The notes under the pieces were generated by a model that saw nothing but the letters and a program-made list of their open reading frames with translations, was not told the origin of the DNA and ran no database searches. From Methylogaea oryzae (GTDB lineage Bacteria > Pseudomonadota > Gammaproteobacteria > Methylococcales > Methylococcaceae), in assembly GCF_019669985.1 (NCBI RefSeq), contig NZ_AP019782.1, forward strand, positions 1,480,501-1,544,500: a stretch of 64,000 bases of DNA, read 5' to 3'. Both the position numbers and the translations under genes were made by a program. Below are positions 49,317 through 60,403 of the stretch, in pieces. Position 1 is the first letter of the stretch, and each line of letters begins with the position of its first letter.

Positions 49317-52300
49317 TTATACCTCCGTAGTGCCTTTGAGCAACCGCATCAGCAGCGACGTCTTCTGCGTCGCGCGGCTATCCTCGTCCTCGCCGTGGCG
49401 GTGCTGGTGCTCGTGTTCTTCGCCGGGCTTGTGGGTGTGGGGCATGAGTTCGCTCAGGTCTTTCTCCACGTTGACTAAAAACGCTTTGAACTCCGGCGTC
49501 TGGGTGTTGGCGTCGCCCAAATACGGCGTCAGGTTGTTGGCGAAAAAGCCCTTGCGGGTCTGGCCCTGGAAACCCCAGTGCACCGGCACGCCGATCTGGT
49601 GCACGGTCTGGCCGGCCACGGACAGCGGCTTGATGCGCTTGGTGACCATGGCCACGGCCTTGATGAAGCCGCGCTTGGAGCGCACGGTGACGATCTCGCC
49701 GTTGGCGATGCTCAGCTCCCGCGCCAGCTCCTGGCCGATTTCCACGAACTGTTCCGGTTGCAGCGAGGCGTTGATGCGCACATGGCTGGTCCAGCAGTTG
49801 AAATGCTCGGTCAGGCGGTAGGTGGTGGCGACATAGGGGAAATCCTCCTTGCCGCCCAGCATGGCCTTGTCGCCGGGGAACACGCGCGCCGCCGGGTTGC
49901 TGACCACTTTGGGGTGCAGCGGATTGGTGCCCAGCGGGGTTTCGTAGGGCTCGTAGTGCTCGGGGAACGGGCCGTCGGCCAGCCGGTCGGCGGCGAATAA
50001 GCGGCCGACGCCTTCCGGATTCATGATGAAGGGCGCCATGTCGTTGCCGGGCGCGACGTCCGCTTTGTAATCGGGCACGTCCAGGCCGCTCCACTTGTTG
50101 CCGTCCCACTGGATGATGCGGCGCTTTTCGTTCCAGGGCTTGCCGGCCGGGTCGCAGGAAGCGCGGTTGTAGAGGATGCGCCGGTTGGCCGGCCAGGCCC
50201 AGGCCCAGTTGGGAGCGATACCCAAACCGGTGGGGTCGGACGTATCGCGGCGCGCCATCTGGTTGCCGGCTTCGGTCCAGGAGCCGCTGAACACCCAGTT
50301 GCCGCAGGCGGTGCTGCCGTCGTCCTGCAACTGGGCAAAACCGGCCAGCTGCTGGCCGGCCTTGACCAGGATTTTGCCCGGGTCTTTGGGATCGGCGATG
50401 TCGGCTAGGGCGTAGCCGCTGTATTCCTTGGCCAGTTCTTCCGGCGAGGGTTCCTCGGCTTTCTGATAGGGCCAGTGCAGGTTGAGGATGGGCTCGGGGA
50501 AAGCGCCGCCGTCCTTGCGGTAAGCGTCGCGCAGCCGCAGGTACAAATCGGACATGATCTCCACGTCGTTGCGCGCCTCGCCCGGCGGCTCCGCGCCTTT
50601 CCAGTGCCATTGCAGCCAGCGCGAGCTGTTGACCAGGGAGCCGTCCTCCTCGGCGAAGCAGGTGGTGGGCAGGCGCAGCACTTCGGTCTGGATATCGGCC
50701 GGATTCACCGGGTTGTGCTCGCCGTGGTTCTGCCAGAATTCGGAGGTGTCCGTCGCCAGGGGGTCCATCACCACCAGGAACTTGAGCTTGGCCAGGGCGG
50801 CGGCGACCTTGGCCTTGTTGGGGTAGGAAGCCAGCGGGTTGAAGCCTTGGCAGATAAAGCCGTTGACCTTGCCCTGCGCCATCAGGTCGAACATGCGCAG
50901 GCTGTCGTAGGGCTTGTCCAGCTTGGGCAGCCAGTCGTAGCACCAATCGTTGTCCTTGGTCGCCGCCTTGCCGTACCAGGCCTTCATCAAACTGGTGTGG
51001 AACTTGGGCAGGTTGGACCAGTAGCTGAGCTGGCCCGGCCGCAGCGGCTTGAAGGCGCGCTTTTCCAAATAGCCGGCGCGGCCGGTTTCGCTGTCCTTGG
51101 GCAAGGTGATGTAGCCGGGCAACATGTCGGTGAGCAGGCCCAGATCGCTCAGCCCCTGGATGTTGGAGTGGCCGCGCAGGGCGTTGACGCCGCCGCCGGA
51201 GACGCCCATGTTGCCCAGCAACAGCTGGATCATGGCCATGGCGCGGATGTTCTGCACGCCTACGGTGTGGTGGGTCCAGCCCAGGGCGTACAAACTCGTC
51301 AGGGTGCGGCTGGGCACGGCGGTGGATGCGATCAGCTCGCAGATTTTCAGGAAGGCGTCTTTCGGCGTGCCGGTCAGCTCCGTCACCTTGTCCGGCGTGT
51401 AGCGCTCCACGTGCGCCTTGAGCAATTGGAACACGCAGCGCGGGTGCTGCAAGGTGGTGTCCACCTTGGCGTAGCCTTGGTCGTCCAGCTCGTAGTTCCA
51501 GCTGCTACGGTCGTACTGCTGCTCGCTCTTGCCGGCGTCGTAGCCGCTGAACAAACCGTCCTCGAAGCGGAAGTCCTCGCGCACGATGAAGGCGGCGTTG
51601 CTGTAAGCCGTCACGTACTCGCGGTTGATGGCTTCGTTTTCCAACAGATAACGCATGACGCCGTTGAGGAAGGCGATGTCGCTGCCGGCGCGGATCGGCG
51701 CGTAGAAATCGGCCACCGCCGCCGTGCGGTTGAAGCGCGGGTCTACCACGATCAGCTTGGCCTTGTTCTTGGCCTTGGCTTCCACCGCCCACTTGAAGCC
51801 CACCGGATGGGCCTCGGCTGGATTGCCGCCCATCACCAGGATCACGTCGGCGTTCTTGATGTCCATCCAGGTGTTGGTCATGGCGCCGCGGCCGAAGCTG
51901 GAAGCCAGGGCCGCCACGGACGGGGCGTGGCAAATGCGCGCCTGGCTGTCGAGCATGACGATGCCCAGCGCGCGGGCGATCTTGTTGGTGAGGTAGCCGG
52001 TTTCGTTGGAGGCGGCGGAAGCGGCCAAAAAGCCCAGGGAGGTCCAGCGGTTGACGGTCTGGCCCTGGTCGTTCTTGGCGATGAAGTTCTGGTCGCGGTC
52101 TTCCTTCAGCAACTGGGCGACGCGCTGCATGGCCCACTCCCAGGACACCCGCTTCCATTCCTTGCTGCCGGGGGCGCGGTATTCCGGGTATTTGAGGCGC
52201 GTCGGACTGCGGACGAAATCCAGCAGGCCCGCCCCCTTGGGACACAGGCTGCCGCGGCTCACCGGATGGTCCGGGTCGCCTTCGATGTGGATGATTTCCG

Positions 52301-52517
52301 CCTTGGCGTTCTTCGCCTTGTCGCCCAGGCTGTACATGATGAGGCCGCAGGCCACCGAGCAATAGGGGCAGGTGTTGCGGGTTTCGGTGGTGCGCGCCAG
52401 CTTGAAAGTGCGCACTTCGGCCAGGGCCTCGCTGGGCGAAAAGCCCAGAGCCGCTAGGGAGGAGCCGCCCAGGGTGGTCGCGCTCAGCTTGAAAAACTGG
52501 CGTCGTGTGACTTGCAT
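49317..52517 (-). CDS. fdoG: Formate dehydrogenase-N/O alpha subunit, Cys form, Tat-exported
   Basis: The periplasmic molybdopterin subunit, 1066 residues. A Tat signal ([15 protein letters not shown]) is followed by the [4Fe-4S] motif [10 protein letters not shown] near 50 and molybdopterin domains. At residue 196, in [14 protein letters not shown], a Cys replaces the selenocysteine that E. coli FdnG/FdoG carry at the same number; this is one continuous frame without an internal UGA. Quinone-linked formate oxidation would complement the NAD-linked FdsABG enzyme. ATG 52517 is well placed for the signal peptide. The long opposite-strand frame at 50475 is a shadow. Confidence 0.96.
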
Positions 52518-54308: not shown

Positions 54309-54686
54309 GTGGACACCCGCAAGGTCGTCGCCACCGAGGCCGCCCTGGCCTTGGTGGAAACCCTCAAGGCCAAGCACGGCCCGTTGATGTTTCACCAATC
54401 GGGCGGCTGCTGCGACGGCAGCGCGCCCATGTGCTACCCGCAAGGGGAGCTGCTGGTGGGCGATAACGACGTGCTGCTGGGCGACATCGGCGGCAGCCCG
54501 TTCTATATCAGCGCTTCCCAGTACGAGTATTGGAAACACACCCAGCTCATCATCGACGTGGTGCCGGGCCGGGGTGGGCAGTTTTCCCTGGAAAGCGCCG
54601 AAGGCGTGCGATTCCTCACCCGTTCCCGCTTGTTCAGCGACGAGGAAGCGGCGGCGTTGGGGGAGGGCGCCAGGGTCGGTGTTTAG
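54309..54686 (+). CDS. DUF779 protein, aldehyde dehydrogenase partner
   Basis: A 125-residue protein starting at GTG 54309, 8 bases after the aldehyde dehydrogenase stop: VDTRKVVATEAALALVETLK, then FHQSGGCCDGSAPMCYPQGE with the conserved Cys set, ISASQYEYWKHTQLIIDVVP and LTRSRLFSDEE. DUF779 genes regularly follow acetaldehyde dehydrogenases, but their function is unknown; the Cys cluster suggests metal binding. An upstream in-frame start at 54081 inside the previous gene is not credible. Confidence 0.88.
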   Translation: MDTRKVVATEAALALVETLKAKHGPLMFHQSGGCCDGSAPMCYPQGELLVGDNDVLLGDIGGSPFYISASQYEYWKHTQLIIDVVPGRGGQFSLESAEGVRFLTRSRLFSDEEAAALGEGARVGV

Positions 54687-54918: not shown

Positions 54919-54942
54919 CGTAATATATGGCTCTAAATAACG
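54919..54942. promoter_or_regulatory. ModE operator upstream of modBCE
   Basis: CGTAATAT-N8-AAATAACG, 24 bases, matches the architecture of the E. coli modA operator as I recall it (CGTTATAT-N8-ACATAACG). It lies 82 bases before the modB ATG. Two more sites of the same 24-base length occur at 58536 and 58642, which makes chance unlikely. Confidence 0.75.
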
Positions 54943-55024: not shown

Positions 55025-55711
55025 ATGCTGACGCCGGAAGAGCAGTCCGCGTTGCTGCTGTCGGTAAAGGTCAGCGTTTGCTCGGTCGCCGCCACGTTGC
55101 CGTTGGCGGTGGCGTTGGCGTGGCTGTTGGCGCGCCGCGCTTTTCCCGGCAAGGCCTTGCTGGAGGCCTTGCTGCACCTGCCGCTGGTGCTGCCACCGGT
55201 GGTGGTGGGCTACGTGCTGTTGTTGACCTTCGGCCGCAACGGCTGGCTGGGCGTCCGCTTGTTCGACTGGTTCGGCGTGACCGTCGCTTTCACCTGGAAA
55301 GGCGCGGCCATCGCCGCCGGGGTGATGGGGTTCCCGTTGATGGTGCAGGCGATCCGCCTGTCCATGGCCGCCATTGAGCCGCGTTTGGAGCAGGCCGCCA
55401 GTACCTTGGGCTCGGGCCCTTGGCGGGTGTTTTTCACCGTTACCTTGCCTTTGTCGCTGCCGGGCATCATCGCCGGCACGGTGCTGGGTTTCGCCCGGGG
55501 GCTGGGCGAATTCGGCGCCACCATTACCTTCGTCGGCAATATCCTCGGGGAAACCCGCACGTTGCCCCTGGCGTTTTTCACCTTGACGCAAACCCCCGGG
55601 GGCGACGACGCCGCCTACCGGCTGGTGTGGTTGTCCATGGCGGTGGCGTTCGGCGCGCTGATGGCCAGCGATCTGCTGGGCAGGCGCAGCAAGCGTCTGT
55701 TGGGAGAGTAG
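55025..55711 (+). CDS. modB: Molybdate ABC transporter permease ModB
   Basis: Inner-membrane channel for molybdate, 228 residues with five or six helices. The ModB landmarks LHLPLVLPPVVVGYVLL near 50, DWFGVTVAFTWKGAAIAA, and the EAA-like loop AASTLGSGPWRVFFTVTLPL near 130 precede LGEFGATITFVGNILGETRT. ATG 55025 is preferred to GTG 55004. modC follows after 5 bases. modA is not upstream as usual; it is encoded convergently 2 kb away. Confidence 0.95.
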   Translation: MLTPEEQSALLLSVKVSVCSVAATLPLAVALAWLLARRAFPGKALLEALLHLPLVLPPVVVGYVLLLTFGRNGWLGVRLFDWFGVTVAFTWKGAAIAAGVMGFPLMVQAIRLSMAAIEPRLEQAASTLGSGPWRVFFTVTLPLSLPGIIAGTVLGFARGLGEFGATITFVGNILGETRTLPLAFFTLTQTPGGDDAAYRLVWLSMAVAFGALMASDLLGRRSKRLLGE

Positions 55712-55716
55712 GCGTC

Positions 55717-56844
55717 GTGTTGCGATTGGACGTGGTGCTGAGCCGGGGGCGATTCACCCTGGCGGCGCAATTGGAGGCGGACGCACCGGTCACCGGTTTG
55801 TTCGGCCGCTCCGGTTCCGGCAAGAGCACTTTGCTCGCTGTCGCGGCCGGCCTGGCGCGGCCGCAGCGCGGCCGGGTGGAGCTGGACGGCGAGGTGCTGT
55901 TCGACAGCGAGCGGGGCATTTGCCTGCCCGCCCATCGCCGCCGGGTGGGGCTGGTGTTCCAGGACAGCCAGCTGTTTCCCCATTATTCGGTGCGCGGCAA
56001 CCTGCTGTACGGCTGTCGCCGGCCGGGCGGCAACGGCGTGTTCCGTTTCGACGACATTGTCGATTTGCTGGAACTGGCGCCGTTGCTGCAAGCCCGGCCG
56101 CGCCAGCTGTCCGGTGGCGAGCGCCAGCGGGTGGCGTTGGGGCGGTCGCTTTTGGCCGCGCCGCGCCTGTTGTTGCTGGACGAGCCCCTGGCTTCCCTGG
56201 ACCAGGGACTGAAGGCGCAGATATTGCCGTTCCTCAAGCGCATCAAGGACGAGCTGGGCCTGCCCATGGTGTACGTATCCCACAGCCTGGCGGAAATTCT
56301 TCATCTCACCGACCGCCTGGCCTTGGTGGCCGAAGGCCGGGTGGTCGCTGCCGGCGTTTTGCAACGGCTGGTGGCGGAAGGACGGCTGGCCGAAGCCAAA
56401 GTGGCGGTGCCGGAGAATATCCTGGCGGCGTCGGTGGTCGGCCACGATCCGGAAGGCGGATGCACCGAGATGGCGGTGGGTGGGCAGGTGTTGCGCGTGC
56501 CCATGCAGGCGCAGCGGCGGGCAGGCGAGACGGCTTATCTGGCCTTGGCCGCTGGCGACGTTGCCCTGGCGCGCCACGCCGTGGCGGGCACTTCCATCCA
56601 GAACCAAATCGGCGGCCGCGTCGTCGGCGTGCGCGAATTCAACGGCGCCATGCGCATCGCCATCGACGCCGGCGCGCCCTTGCTGGCCGAGGTGTCGCGC
56701 CACGCTTGCGCCGAGCTGGATCTGCGGGAGGGCGCGCAAGTCTATTGCCTGATCAAAGCGCGCTCGTTCCATTATCTGACCGACGGCTGGGATGGCGGCG
56801 ATGGATCTTCCGGCGCGCCATCCAGCCAGGAGAACGATGCATGA
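55717..56844 (+). CDS. modC: Molybdate ABC transporter ATPase ModC
   Basis: Energises molybdate import. The 375-residue product has Walker A LFGRSGSGKSTLLAVAAGL near 33, signature QLSGGERQRVALGRSL near 130, Walker B LLLLDEPLASLDQ and switch His in VSHSLAEIL. A C-terminal Mop domain at about 300-360 (QIGGRVVGVREFNGAMRIAI) can bind molybdate and adjust uptake. The start is GTG 55717, which begins the family N-terminus LRLDVVLSRGRF; a frame extension to 55420 is shadow sequence. The stop overlaps the modE start (ATGA). Confidence 0.95.
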   Translation: MLRLDVVLSRGRFTLAAQLEADAPVTGLFGRSGSGKSTLLAVAAGLARPQRGRVELDGEVLFDSERGICLPAHRRRVGLVFQDSQLFPHYSVRGNLLYGCRRPGGNGVFRFDDIVDLLELAPLLQARPRQLSGGERQRVALGRSLLAAPRLLLLDEPLASLDQGLKAQILPFLKRIKDELGLPMVYVSHSLAEILHLTDRLALVAEGRVVAAGVLQRLVAEGRLAEAKVAVPENILAASVVGHDPEGGCTEMAVGGQVLRVPMQAQRRAGETAYLALAAGDVALARHAVAGTSIQNQIGGRVVGVREFNGAMRIAIDAGAPLLAEVSRHACAELDLREGAQVYCLIKARSFHYLTDGWDGGDGSSGAPSSQENDA

Positions 56845-57653
56845 GCGAACCGAAACAGCCCCCGGCGCCGCCCGGCTTGGTGGAGGGCGAGTTGCGCCTG
56901 GCGGGCGGCCTCAACGAAAAGCTGTTCCGTCTGCTGGCCGCGATCGACGCCAGCGGCTCCATCAACCAGGCCGCCAAGGCCGTCGGCCTCAGTTACAAAG
57001 GCGCTTGGGAAATGGTGGAGCGGGCCAACAACCTGTCGCCGCGGGTGCTGGTGTCCACCGCCGTGGGTGGCCGCCACGGCGGCGGCACGGCGCTCACCGC
57101 GGCGGGGCAAAGCCTGCTGGGGTTATACCGGCGTTTGCAGGAAGAACATCGCCAATTCCTGCGCGGACTCAACGACGATTTGGCGGCCGATCCGGAATTT
57201 TTGTTTTTAGCCAGGAGAATGCTGATGAAAGCCAGTGCGCGTAACCAGTTTTTCGGAAAAGTGGCGGAAGTCAGGCCGGGCGCGGTCAATGCCGAAGTCG
57301 TGGTGAGCCTCAAGGGCGGCGATACGCTGGTGGCCGCCGTTACCATGGAGTCTTTGCAAACCCTGGGGATCGCGGCGGACGTGGATGTGGTGGCGCTGGT
57401 GAAAGCGCCCCAGGTGGTCATCGTCACCGACATGGGGCCGTATCGCTTGAGCGCCCGCAACCAGCTGACGGGCAGTGTCGTTCGCGTGCAGAAAGGCGCG
57501 GTGAACGCGGAAGTGGTGATTCAACTGCCGGGCGGCGATACGGTTTACGCCACCGTCACCAACGACGCGGTGGAGGACCTGGGCTTGAAGGAAGGCAGCG
57601 CCGCCACCGCGGTGTTCAAGGCCGGGGCGGTGATTCTCGGCGTGGCCGCCTAG
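56841..57653 (+). CDS. modE: Molybdate-responsive regulator ModE
   Basis: DNA-binding sensor of molybdate, 270 residues. The N-terminal winged helix-turn-helix has IDASGSINQAAKAVGLSYKG, then AWEMVERANNL and GRHGGGTALTAAGQSLL. Two Mop repeats follow: KASARNQFFGKVAEVRPGAV near 130, and RLSARNQLTGSVVRVQKGAV near 200. This is full-length E. coli-like ModE. It normally represses molybdate uptake when molybdate is plentiful. Three matching operators are present at 54919, 58536 and 58642. modE is the last gene of modBCE, so it would also control its own synthesis. Confidence 0.95.
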   Translation: MSEPKQPPAPPGLVEGELRLAGGLNEKLFRLLAAIDASGSINQAAKAVGLSYKGAWEMVERANNLSPRVLVSTAVGGRHGGGTALTAAGQSLLGLYRRLQEEHRQFLRGLNDDLAADPEFLFLARRMLMKASARNQFFGKVAEVRPGAVNAEVVVSLKGGDTLVAAVTMESLQTLGIAADVDVVALVKAPQVVIVTDMGPYRLSARNQLTGSVVRVQKGAVNAEVVIQLPGGDTVYATVTNDAVEDLGLKEGSAATAVFKAGAVILGVAA

Positions 57654-57705: not shown

Positions 57706-58467
57706 TTACTTTCCGCCCAACAGTGTGAAGCCGTATTTACGGAACACCGCTGCCGCGGCATCCCCTCGCAGATAGTCGTAAAACGCCTTGCTGGCCGGAG
57801 TCTGGTTGAGCAGCGCCGCCGGGTAAACGATGGGGGCGTGGCTGTCGGCGGGGAATTCGGCGACGGTTTCCACTTTGCCGCTGGCGGCCGCGTCGGTGGC
57901 GTAGACGATGGCGGCGGCGCATTCGGCCCGTTCGACGAAGGCCAGCGCGGCCCGGACGTCCTCGGTGCCCACCAGGCGCGACTGGATGCCGTCCCATAGT
58001 CCTAAGTTCTGCAAAGCTTCCTTGGCGTAAATGCCCACCGGCACCGAGGCGGTTTCGCCGGTGCACAATTTGCCGTCGAAGGCGGCGGCCAGGTTGGCGC
58101 CTTTTTCCAGTTTCACCGGGAAGCCGCGGCCTTTGGGGGCAACCAATACCAGGCTATTGCCGAGCAGGTTGACGCGGGAGCTGCTGTCGATTTTGGCTTT
58201 GCCGTCCAGGTAGTCCATCCATTTCAGGTCGGCGGAAATGAACAGGCCGGCGGGGGCGCCGTTTTCGATTTGCTTCGCCAGGGCGGAGGAGGCGGCGAAG
58301 GAGGTTTTCACCGTGTCGCCGCTGCCGCTTTCGTAAGCTTTGGCGATTTCGGTCAAGGCGTTGGTGAGGCTGGCGGCGGCGAAAACGGTGGTTTCCGCGG
58401 CCTGGACGGCGGCTTGGGGCGCCAGGCCGACGACCAGGGCGAACAGGGCGAGTTGTAAGTGTTTCAT
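57706..58467 (-). CDS. modA: Molybdate-binding periplasmic protein ModA
   Basis: Periplasmic molybdate receptor of 253 residues. A signal peptide (MKHLQLALFALVVGLAPQAA) precedes the oxyanion-binding segments VFAAASLTNALTEIAKAYE, SFAASSALAKQIENGAPAGL (Ser contacts near 58-59), ISADLKWMDYL and GNSLVLVAPK. GETASVPVGIYAKEALQNLG and AIVYATDA follow in the second lobe. It has a GGAG ribosome site and a ModE operator 69 bases upstream. It stands apart from modBC, on the opposite strand, but is tied to them by the shared operator type. Confidence 0.95.
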   Translation of the reverse strand: MKHLQLALFALVVGLAPQAAVQAAETTVFAAASLTNALTEIAKAYESGSGDTVKTSFAASSALAKQIENGAPAGLFISADLKWMDYLDGKAKIDSSSRVNLLGNSLVLVAPKGRGFPVKLEKGANLAAAFDGKLCTGETASVPVGIYAKEALQNLGLWDGIQSRLVGTEDVRAALAFVERAECAAAIVYATDAAASGKVETVAEFPADSHAPIVYPAALLNQTPASKAFYDYLRGDAAAAVFRKYGFTLLGGK

Positions 58468-58535
58468 GGATGGACTCCTGCGGTGAATGTGTCGAGGTCA
58501 ATGGGCCGGCGCACGGCGGTTATGCCGTTGGGTAT

Positions 58536-58559
58536 CGCTATAACGTACACTATATTGCG
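58536..58559. promoter_or_regulatory. ModE operator upstream of modA
   Basis: CGCTATAA-N8-ATATTGCG spans 24 bases in the 331-base divergent region between modA and the porin gene. It sits 69 bases before the modA ATG, where the modA promoter should be. First and last bases agree with the other two sites (CG-n-TA and CG ends). Confidence 0.75.
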
Positions 58560-58641
58560 CTAGCGTCGTAGTCGCAGCATGATTCAGGCCAGCGGCGATG
58601 CGTTGGCCCGAATGTTGTATTCAAGCCGTTGTGGTGCTCTA

Positions 58642-58665
58642 CGTTATAACGCCATAGTGATAGCG
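58642..58665. promoter_or_regulatory. ModE operator upstream of the porin gene
   Basis: CGTTATAA-N8-TGATAGCG, 24 bases, shares CG(T/C)TATAACG with the 58536 site. It is 133 bases before the porin ATG and 174 bases before modA. The second site could help repress modA, but its place on the porin side suggests that the porin is also ModE-controlled. Confidence 0.68.
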
Positions 58666-58798
58666 AAGGGCGTTCAAGGGCACTTTTCTTTGTGCGCTGT
58701 ACGACATTGTCGGGCGGCTGTTGCTAACACGACGACGCGTCGGCAGCGCCTAAGCTTAGCGGAGCGGTTCGATTGGAAATCCTGTGTGGGGGGAAACG

Positions 58799-60403
58799 AT
58801 GACAACGAGACTACCTAGCCAGTTGGTTTTGAATGGGTGCAAAGATGGGGCGGGCGGGTTCGCTCCGGCCGGGCTGACCGGAATTTCGGCGTTGCTGTTG
58901 CTGCTGAGCGGCGGCCCGCTTGCGGCGGCCGAGGCCGACAAGCCCAAGCCTTCCGTCCGGCCGGCTTTCGGCGCGTCAGCGGCCGTGCAGGACGATTGGA
59001 TCGGCAAGCGCAACCCCTATGCGCCGGAATACAACCTCCACGACGCCTTGGGGCTACCCGATTGGGTGTCTTTCTCCGTGGAAAACCGGCTGCGCTACGA
59101 GAGCATGGACGGCCAGTTCCGCGCCAACGGCGTCGGCGGCGACCAAGCCCTGCCCATGCAGACCGACGCGTGGCTGGAGCTGCGCCACAACGGCTTCCGC
59201 GCCGGCGTGGAATTTCTCGACGCCCGCCAGTTCCTGTCCGACAGCGGCTCCGAGATCGGCTTCAGTGGGGGCAGGGCGGTCAACTTGAACAACACCGAGG
59301 TGAACGAAGCGGACTTCCTGCAAATCTACGGCGCCTGGTCCGGCGAAAACGTCGCCGAATCCGGCGTGGACATGGAGGTGAAACTGGGCCGCCAGACCTT
59401 GGATATGGGCAGCCGCCGCTTGATCGGCCGCAACGTGTTCCGCAACGCCGTCAACAGCTTCACCGGCGCGCTGTTCCGTTTCCGCGACAACAAGGATAAG
59501 TGGCAGCTGCGCTTGTTCGGCGTGCAGCCGGTGGAACGTTTCCCCACCGCCAGCGCCGATCTGATGAACGGCCGCCACCGCTTCGACGAAGAGGCCTACC
59601 GCGCCTATTTGGGCGGCGGCATGGCGGAATGGTTCGACGTGGCCTACAAAGTGAACGCGGAAGCCTACCTGTATTACCTCAACGAGGCGGACCGTCCCGG
59701 CGTGCTGACCGCCGACCGCGAGCTGTTCACCCCCGGCGTGCGCTTCTACCGCAAGCCGGCCAAGGATCAGTTCGACTTCGAGGCGGAAACCATCGCCCAG
59801 GTCGGTAACTCCCACGCCACCACCGCGGCCACCGACCGCAAGACGCTAAGCAACCAGGCTTGGTTCCAGCACGTCGAGGCCGGCTACACCTTCGATTTGC
59901 CCTGGTCGCCCCGCTTCATGGCCATGTACGACTATGCCAGCGGCGACCACAGCAGCCGGGACGGCGTCAACGGCCGTTTCGACACCCTCTACGGCGTGCG
60001 CCGGGCGGATTTCAACCCCACCGGCATTTTCGGCGCCGTGGCGCGGGGCAACGTCAATTCGCCTGGCTACCGCGTGTTCTTGGCGCCCCGCGACGACGTG
60101 ACGGCTTTCGTCGGCCATCGCCTGGTGTGGCTGGCGGACCGCAAGGACGAGTGGGTGGGGACCGGCTTGCGCGACGCCACCGGTAAATCCGGCGATTTCG
60201 TCGGCCATTTGATCGAGGCGTCCACCCGCTGGGACGTCAGTTCCAATCTGGCGCTGGAAACCGGCTGGACGCACTTGATCAAGGGCGAGTTCGCGCGCAA
60301 CGCCGTCACCTCTCCGGCCACCCGCACGGCCGCCGCCGTGGCCGCGCCGCGGGATAAGCAGGATGTGGATTATTTCTACGTGCAGTCCTTGGTGAGATTT
60401 TAG
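58799..60403 (+). CDS. Alginate-export-family outer membrane porin, candidate molybdate channel
   Basis: A 534-residue outer-membrane beta-barrel. After about 30 N-terminal residues comes a hydrophobic export segment (GISALLLLLSGGPLAAAEA). DWVSFSVENRLRYESMDGQF and KLGRQTLDMGSRRLIGRNVF then show the alternating strands of the Alginate_exp family. Repeated Tyr/Trp-edged strands lead to the final strand VDYFYVQSLVRF, with a terminal Phe. ATG 58799 follows GGGGGGAAA; GTG 58784 is an alternative. Family members pass anionic polymers or small anions. The ModE site upstream and the mod genes next door suggest a role in oxyanion entry, which is inference. Confidence 0.8.
   Translation: MTTRLPSQLVLNGCKDGAGGFAPAGLTGISALLLLLSGGPLAAAEADKPKPSVRPAFGASAAVQDDWIGKRNPYAPEYNLHDALGLPDWVSFSVENRLRYESMDGQFRANGVGGDQALPMQTDAWLELRHNGFRAGVEFLDARQFLSDSGSEIGFSGGRAVNLNNTEVNEADFLQIYGAWSGENVAESGVDMEVKLGRQTLDMGSRRLIGRNVFRNAVNSFTGALFRFRDNKDKWQLRLFGVQPVERFPTASADLMNGRHRFDEEAYRAYLGGGMAEWFDVAYKVNAEAYLYYLNEADRPGVLTADRELFTPGVRFYRKPAKDQFDFEAETIAQVGNSHATTAATDRKTLSNQAWFQHVEAGYTFDLPWSPRFMAMYDYASGDHSSRDGVNGRFDTLYGVRRADFNPTGIFGAVARGNVNSPGYRVFLAPRDDVTAFVGHRLVWLADRKDEWVGTGLRDATGKSGDFVGHLIEASTRWDVSSNLALETGWTHLIKGEFARNAVTSPATRTAAAVAAPRDKQDVDYFYVQSLVRF

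Follow-up and report, generated by a model that had tools for sequence, protein, structure and literature searches.

Methanotrophs need molybdenum to run formate dehydrogenase, to reduce nitrate and to fix nitrogen. The phosphate porins OprP and OprO (PF07396) are Pho-regulated substrate porins, and porins of the Occ/OprD type guide small anions by means of basic residues, their known cargoes being organic carboxylates. With respect to molybdate, the available part of one source presents diffusion through porins as the supposed route of entry (PMC8264917), and this agrees with the assumption of general-porin entry made in an earlier interpretation of the DNA studied here (the sequence-only reading). 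In the accessible portions of two further papers, a TonB receptor 'potentially for molybdate' is placed in the Mo cluster of Azotobacter chroococcum (PMC4465626), and Pseudomonas aeruginosa is described as using a ModA protein secreted by its T6SS together with IcmP at the outer membrane (PMC8602904). The operator consensus of the Escherichia coli regulator ModE is given in the available text of PMC545781 as ATCGNTATATA-N6-TATATANCGAT. The accessible part of a survey of outer-membrane protein families covers the alginate export family without molybdate, and a search of open-licence PubMed Central papers found no literature link between an Alginate_exp porin and either ModE or a mod operon. A paper on the ompW porin was rejected as a precedent, since 'mode' is a common word in its available text and molybdate occurs there only in media.

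The window, by which we mean the whole stretch of DNA that was analysed, comprises 64 kb (63% G+C) of a 4.02-Mb single-contig genome, by kinship that of a methanotroph allied to the Methylococcaceae in the order Methylococcales, and carries a set of molybdate genes together with a gene for an outer-membrane porin (Table 1). The genes modA and porin are divergent across a 331-bp intergenic region, and the end of modE lies 1.1 kb from the porin start. The ModE protein matches the Mop model TIGR00638 over two stretches with 143 bits, above the cut-off, and its residues 28-267 match the E. coli ModE structure 1b9m with an E value of 2.6e-38; it remains below the cut-offs of the curated models ModE_repress (89.2 bits; cut-off 98.5) and PRK10676 (171; cut-off 369). 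The genome thus encodes the full-length regulator that a ModE regulon presupposes. The sequence-only reading had recognised an alginate-export-family porin, a ModE protein encoded about 1 kb away from it, and three 24-base palindromes before modB, modA and the porin gene. Each of these assignments stood up: the porin scores 177 bits against the PF13372 cut-off of 25.2, the regulator has Mop domains above cut-off in addition to its similarity to the E. coli structure, and the palindromes are found at 54919, 58536 and 58642.

Table 1. Position of the genes and palindromes of the window's molybdate locus, and of the OprO/P-type porins found at the mod locus of other genomes (locus:start-end).
Feature	Position	Strand	Evidence and remarks
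modB, molybdate ABC permease	55025..55711	+	NCBIfam TIGR02141, 225 bits, above cut-off; start ATG
modC, molybdate ABC ATPase with TOBE domain	55717..56844	+	NCBIfam TIGR02142, 375 bits, above cut-off; Pfam ABC_tran and TOBE; start GTG
modE, full-length regulator: N-terminal winged helix and two Mop domains	56841..57653	+	Mop model; E. coli structure 1b9m
modA, periplasmic molybdate-binding protein	57706..58467	-	TIGR01256, 204.6 bits, above NCBIfam cut-off; solved ModA structures, best E 1e-76
Alginate_exp-family outer-membrane porin, 534 aa, predicted 18-strand barrel	58799..60403	+	PF13372, 177.2 bits; cut-off 25.2
ModE-type palindrome CGTAATATATGGCTCTAAATAACG	54919..54942	.	82 bp before modB; one mismatch to CGNTAT-N12-ATANCG
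ModE-type palindrome CGCTATAACGTACACTATATTGCG	58536..58559	.	68 bp before modA; one mismatch to CGNTAT-N12-ATANCG
ModE-type palindrome CGTTATAACGCCATAGTGATAGCG	58642..58665	.	133 bp before porin start; exact CGNTAT-N12-ATANCG
OprO/P-type porin at mod locus	L286:3836-5683		
OprO/P-type porin at mod locus	L287:5896-7698		
OprO/P-type porin at mod locus	L288:2719-4617		
OprO/P-type porin at mod locus	L289:5778-7688		

Close to the mod genes, the minus strand of the window (49317-52517) encodes a large molybdopterin oxidoreductase, formate dehydrogenase-like by reading of its sequence; none of the top three ModE-matrix ranks in the window (see below) lies before this gene. A DUF779 protein is encoded at 54312-54686, directly 3' of an aldehyde dehydrogenase gene.

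How much weight the palindromes can bear depends on the way in which they are assessed. The 64-kb window was scanned with a symmetric matrix derived from 46 distinct exact sites in other genomes, the window being excluded, and it placed 54919, 58642 and 58536 at ranks 1, 2 and 3 among all window positions (scores of 17.6, 10.7 and 9.5). Five mononucleotide shuffles of the window yielded maxima from 1.6 to 12.6, the highest of which exceeds the scores of 10.7 and 9.5; because shuffled maxima reach 12.6, the intergenic sites 58642 and 58536 are convincing only in combination with their position and conservation. The bare pattern was rejected as evidence since it is as frequent in the genome as its reversed control: exact CGNTAT-N12-ATANCG occurs at 3 places in 4.02 Mb versus 3 for the control, and with two mismatches allowed the numbers are 1058 versus 1054. 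A longer form, CGNTATAAC-N9-ATANCG, whose extra bases were picked after the sites of the family had been viewed, has four genomic occurrences when no more than one mismatch is tolerated; the 331-bp modA/porin intergenic region contains two of them, and 58642 is the only one free of mismatches. A simple scan of 58300-58900 revealed no sigma-70-like promoter pair.

The conservation of the arrangement was assessed in the order Methylococcales, where a protein search of 151 genomes (the window's own included) gave matches in 94. The main set comprises 83 loci with at least 32% identity from 79 genomes and 30 genera, again with the window's own included; 20 lower-identity loci were also taken, and short fragments and further lower-identity matches were left out. 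The modA gene is found near the porin gene in 50 of the 83 loci (19 of the 30 genera; 49/82 without the window), and either modA or a ModE/Mop-like gene in 55 (22 of the 30 genera; 54/82 without the window). For five of these 55 linked loci the sole match is ModE/Mop-like, and in L060 it is located 4.5 kb off. When the count is restricted to loci flanked by 1.3 kb or more on each side, 51 of 73 are linked; the 28 of 83 loci without a nearby mod gene lack one in part because contigs end. In the only further genome of the window's genus among those searched, neither the porin (E values up to 1e-20) nor ModA (E values up to 0.001) was detected; this genome is a draft, and it is a single instance.

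Palindromes were sought in the 450 bases upstream of each porin start and in the first 60 bases inside the gene, and the chance expectation was taken from 100 rounds of dinucleotide shuffles. An exact palindrome is present upstream of the porin in 39 of the 83 loci, representing 14 genera (38/82 without the window), whereas the shuffled sequences gave 0.06 on average and never more than 2; when one mismatch is tolerated, the count rises to 48 of 83 against 1.06 expected. No palindrome with at most one mismatch is found in 14 of the 55 linked loci. Judged by this comparison of gene neighbourhoods, the association of the porin with the mod locus is conserved in the Methylococcales, and the porin belongs to the molybdate locus.

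A second collection, the named set, consists of the best 80 of 332 loci from an alignment-based search and covers largely the same genomes as the 83-locus set; a single-sequence search of genome contigs had confirmed no relative, whereas the search with an alignment did. Within these best 80 of 332 loci, ModA is encoded in 60, ModA or a ModE/Mop-like gene in 65, a ModE-like gene lies divergent upstream in 38, and an exact palindrome occurs in 40 at a median position of about -117. The usual order at the locus is modE, palindrome, porin, modA. It is exemplified by Methylomonas methanica (L175), with modE, palindrome, porin, a confirmed modA, mop and a ModC-like gene, and by Methylobacter tundripaludum SV96 (L157), in which a divergent modE and the palindrome are followed by the porin, a TauE-family permease, modA, modB, modC, mop and a second ModC-like gene, the identities of modA, modB and the ModE-like gene having been confirmed. 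Methylomonas sp. LW13 (L173) likewise has modE, palindrome, porin and modA in succession, and in both L173 and L157 the palindrome is exact. In two lineages, mod operons contain a TauE/SafE-family permease, either internally or at their end (L157:8501-9286, L286:9872-10675).

Since the 331-bp region of the window also serves modA, the palindrome at 58642 could act on modA, and one can therefore envision that both palindromes of the divergent region act on this gene and that the porin promoter is free from ModE control. The two sites are 68 bp (58536) and 174 bp (58642) away from the modA start, and their matrix scores lie within the range of the shuffled window, both of which favour such a scenario. 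It is difficult to reconcile with the arrangement in the named relatives (best 80 of 332 loci), in 57 of which the porin is followed on the same strand, at a distance of no more than 1.3 kb, by modA, and whose exact palindromes are positioned 43 to 321 bases before the porin. Furthermore, four loci of one Methylomonas clade have no mod gene within about 7 kb and nevertheless possess an exact palindrome at -136 to -144 of the porin, which separates regulation from mere linkage, albeit in one lineage only. We therefore consider control of modA alone to be quite improbable. Membership of the porin in the ModE regulon, as proposed in the sequence-only reading, is supported by a position at the mod locus and by palindromes far beyond chance; it is very likely on these comparative grounds, and there are no binding or expression data.

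In a Pfam search, the window porin matched PF13372 only, with neither a PF07396 nor an OprD-family match, and no plug or TonB-dependent receptor domain was detected at E values up to 0.001; two further, weak PF13372 matches are present in the whole genome. AlphaFold2, run with 64 sequences, predicts an 18-strand barrel (mean pLDDT 83.6, pTM 0.83). The alignment used for the structure represents 63 of the 80 named loci; 64 had passed the redundancy and length filters, and L192, cut at a contig end, was dropped. The solved fold closest to the predicted model is that of AlgE (5d5d; Z 29.1, 366 aligned residues, rmsd 2.8; Foldseek E 1.2e-16), followed by Occ/OprD porins with Z values of up to 26.7. 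The link to AlgE came only from the fold search, as a sequence-profile search of solved structures with the family alignment gave no relative at E values up to 1.

The Pfam name of the family might be taken to mean that the porin exports alginate or another polysaccharide, and its PF13372 membership and the AlgE fold are in keeping with that function. The structural alignment with AlgE shows only about 11-12% identity, however, and the neighbours of the porin gene, modBCE and modA, are molybdate rather than polysaccharide genes, with no genes for alginate polymerisation or modification beside it. The whole genome offers a single weak and partial AlgX-family match elsewhere, other alginate genes having been outside this search. 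A role in polysaccharide export is, in our view, scarcely credible.

A more serious challenge to molybdate as the main cargo comes from the relatives of the porin. The closest one (L134; 62% identity) is encoded after a ChrA-type chromate transporter gene (region L134:5125-8434), the next two (L122 and L123; 57% and 56%) come after a CysB-family gene, and L136 (55%) has neither a chromate nor a CysB-family gene beside it, with sulfatase genes about 3 kb off. No exact palindrome precedes L134, L122, L123 or L136; L135, the same gene as L122, has one with one mismatch. With nearest relatives located at chromate and CysB-family genes and devoid of exact palindromes, the branch of the window porin may represent an oxyanion porin that was locally recruited to molybdate. 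An AlgE-type porin directly after urease genes (L062:3094-8485) is possibly a urea- or nickel-related channel, and the existence of this urease-linked family member implies that the cargo may vary with the neighbours.

Two ModB-like permeases are encoded in the vicinity of the porin in 16 of the 20 loci of a sister clade (L082-L101, e.g., L091:6977-8644), whose porins are 26-31% identical to the window porin; in the one locus that was checked, these permeases belong to a sulfate ABC importer in which a sulfate-binding protein and CysT were recognised. The AlgE-type porins of this clade are hence candidate sulfate porins. A sulfate-binding protein gene is also found beside a sister-clade porin outside the order (L251). 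When the clade is used as a control, an exact ModE palindrome is present in 2 of 20 loci, both among its 3 mod-locus members. These mod-linked members occupy two separate places inside the clade in a tree from which fragments and repeats of the same gene were omitted (SH-aLRT support only, from a quick method), and as far as this tree can be trusted, sister-clade porins entered the mod locus in two lineages.

Together, the chromate- and CysB-linked relatives, the sulfate-linked sister clade and the urease-linked member favour the view that the window porin is a broad oxyanion porin, mainly for sulfate or chromate, that stands beside modA by chance in this genome; ModE control might then be real or not, and molybdate would not be the main cargo. 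Chance placement does not fit well with an exact palindrome in 14 genera and a mod position in 22 of 30, nor with the separate gain of other porins by the mod locus, and we consider this view rather unlikely.

That separate gain is apparent from two sister genera without a close AlgE-type porin, where an OprO/P-type porin is encoded at the mod locus in four of the four genomes examined (Table 1); one of the two genera has at least four more genomes, which were left out. The L286 and L287 proteins match PF07396. Their counterpart in L288 is not matched by PF07396 but shares 35% identity with the protein of L286 (E 3e-122) and exhibits no significant similarity to the window porin, and that of L289, which has no Pfam match, was not compared by itself and is assigned through its place and an N-terminal stretch nearly identical to that of L288. 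The best palindromes between or before the genes are exact in L286, and carry two mismatches in L287 and one each in L288 and L289. In another genome (G029), a PF07396 protein is located at the other end of the mod cluster. No porin was seen beside modA in G021, in G041 and at one of the two modA loci of G058; the modA loci of G075 and G095 are on short contigs, and G101 contains, a few kb from modA, a 635-aa frame without a Pfam match or similarity to the L286 porin. Gene position and family assignment thus indicate that the mod locus acquired other porins separately. One of the two genera has a tandem pair of dissimilar modA-like genes before modB (L286:5903-7452, L287:4063-5627).

Beyond the order, a class-wide search gave a match in 13 of 369 genomes, including the window's own and G008, and a phylum-wide search in 15 of 398, own included. 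Twenty-six distinct loci outside the order were inspected with 1.5-kb flanks, and in two of them ModA and ModB are encoded divergently from the porin; one, from another order (L247/L298), has an exact palindrome between modA and the porin, and the other (L243/L297) has none. A genome from another family of the class contains a broken porin copy with two stop codons within the match (L131).

That the porin admits molybdate is the best reading of these data because of its constant mod company and because OprO/P-type porins take its place. We suggest, with a probability of roughly 0.7, that it is a ModE-controlled outer-membrane oxyanion channel that serves as the entry point feeding ModABC, whereby binding, permeation and selectivity are inferred. 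The channel role, which the sequence-only reading had raised as a possibility, is supported indirectly by the operon position, by the OprO/P-type porins at the same place in sister genera and by the predicted AlgE/Occ-type barrel. Residue conservation among 57 mod-associated and 20 sister-clade proteins provides candidates for the determinants of selectivity: at 18 positions, a basic residue is present in 95% or more of the mod-associated porins (exposure to the lumen has not been shown), and R211, R307, R416, R441 and K495 are basic in only 0-30% of the sister-clade proteins. Fifteen acidic positions are likewise conserved among the mod-associated porins. Points that speak against the proposed reading are the position of the nearest relatives outside mod loci, the loci of the main set that lack a mod gene or, although linked, a palindrome, the modA loci without a porin, the absence of a sigma-70-like promoter from the simple scan and these conserved acidic positions.

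The process envisioned for this channel would begin with molybdate shortage, when ModE without molybdate is inferred to leave the palindromes at modB, modA and the porin gene, so that the porin would be made together with ModABC. Molybdate would then diffuse into the periplasm through the AlgE/Occ-type barrel with its many conserved basic residues, although diffusion and a preference for molybdate are both inferred, and tungstate and other tetrahedral oxyanions would probably pass the same barrel. In the periplasm, ModA would catch molybdate and ModBC would pump it inward. Once molybdate is sufficient, the ModE-molybdate complex would bind the palindromes and shut modB, modA and the porin gene, a repression that is likewise inferred.

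The presence of a mod-cluster porin under an apparent molybdate switch in many methane-eating bacteria suggests a dedicated outer door. Whether methanotrophs more generally possess dedicated oxyanion channels matched to periplasmic binding proteins (the AlgE-type clade with ModABC under ModE, the sister clade with the sulfate importer, and an OprO/P-type barrel for molybdate in other genera) is a question on which we are evenly divided. If true, a ModE-controlled porin at the mod locus makes the outer membrane a regulated step of molybdenum uptake, and one that was repeatedly re-invented, rather than a leaky sieve. It would likewise provide likely functions for porins now named after alginate export, split by their neighbours into molybdate and sulfate channels, together with candidate selectivity residues for such porins.

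Among the known systems, the E. coli ModE regulon provides the regulatory parallel, as the operator consensus fits the window palindromes and modABC is controlled by ModE; the available text of PMC545781 names no porin among the targets. The TonB receptor of A. chroococcum resembles the window porin in that a mod locus has been suggested to include an outer-membrane component, but it is a TonB-type receptor and not an open porin, and the accessible part of PMC4465626 mentions no ModE operator for it. P. aeruginosa likewise possesses a surface route devoted to molybdate, which relies, in the portion of PMC8602904 available, on a secreted ModA and a metalloproteinase partner. AlgE and the window porin share the Pfam family PF13372 and the predicted 18-strand barrel; at about 11-12% identity, they differ in that the latter is found in a molybdate-import context under ModE-type operators and not in one of alginate synthesis. 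The Occ/OprD porins are close in fold to the model of the window porin, which has no OprD-family Pfam match, and their organic carboxylate cargoes set them apart. With OprP and OprO, finally, the window porin would share the principle of pairing an anion porin with a high-affinity ABC importer under common regulation, and in a sister genus a PF07396 protein occupies the corresponding genomic position; without a PF07396 match it is not a member of that family, and its cargo would be molybdate.
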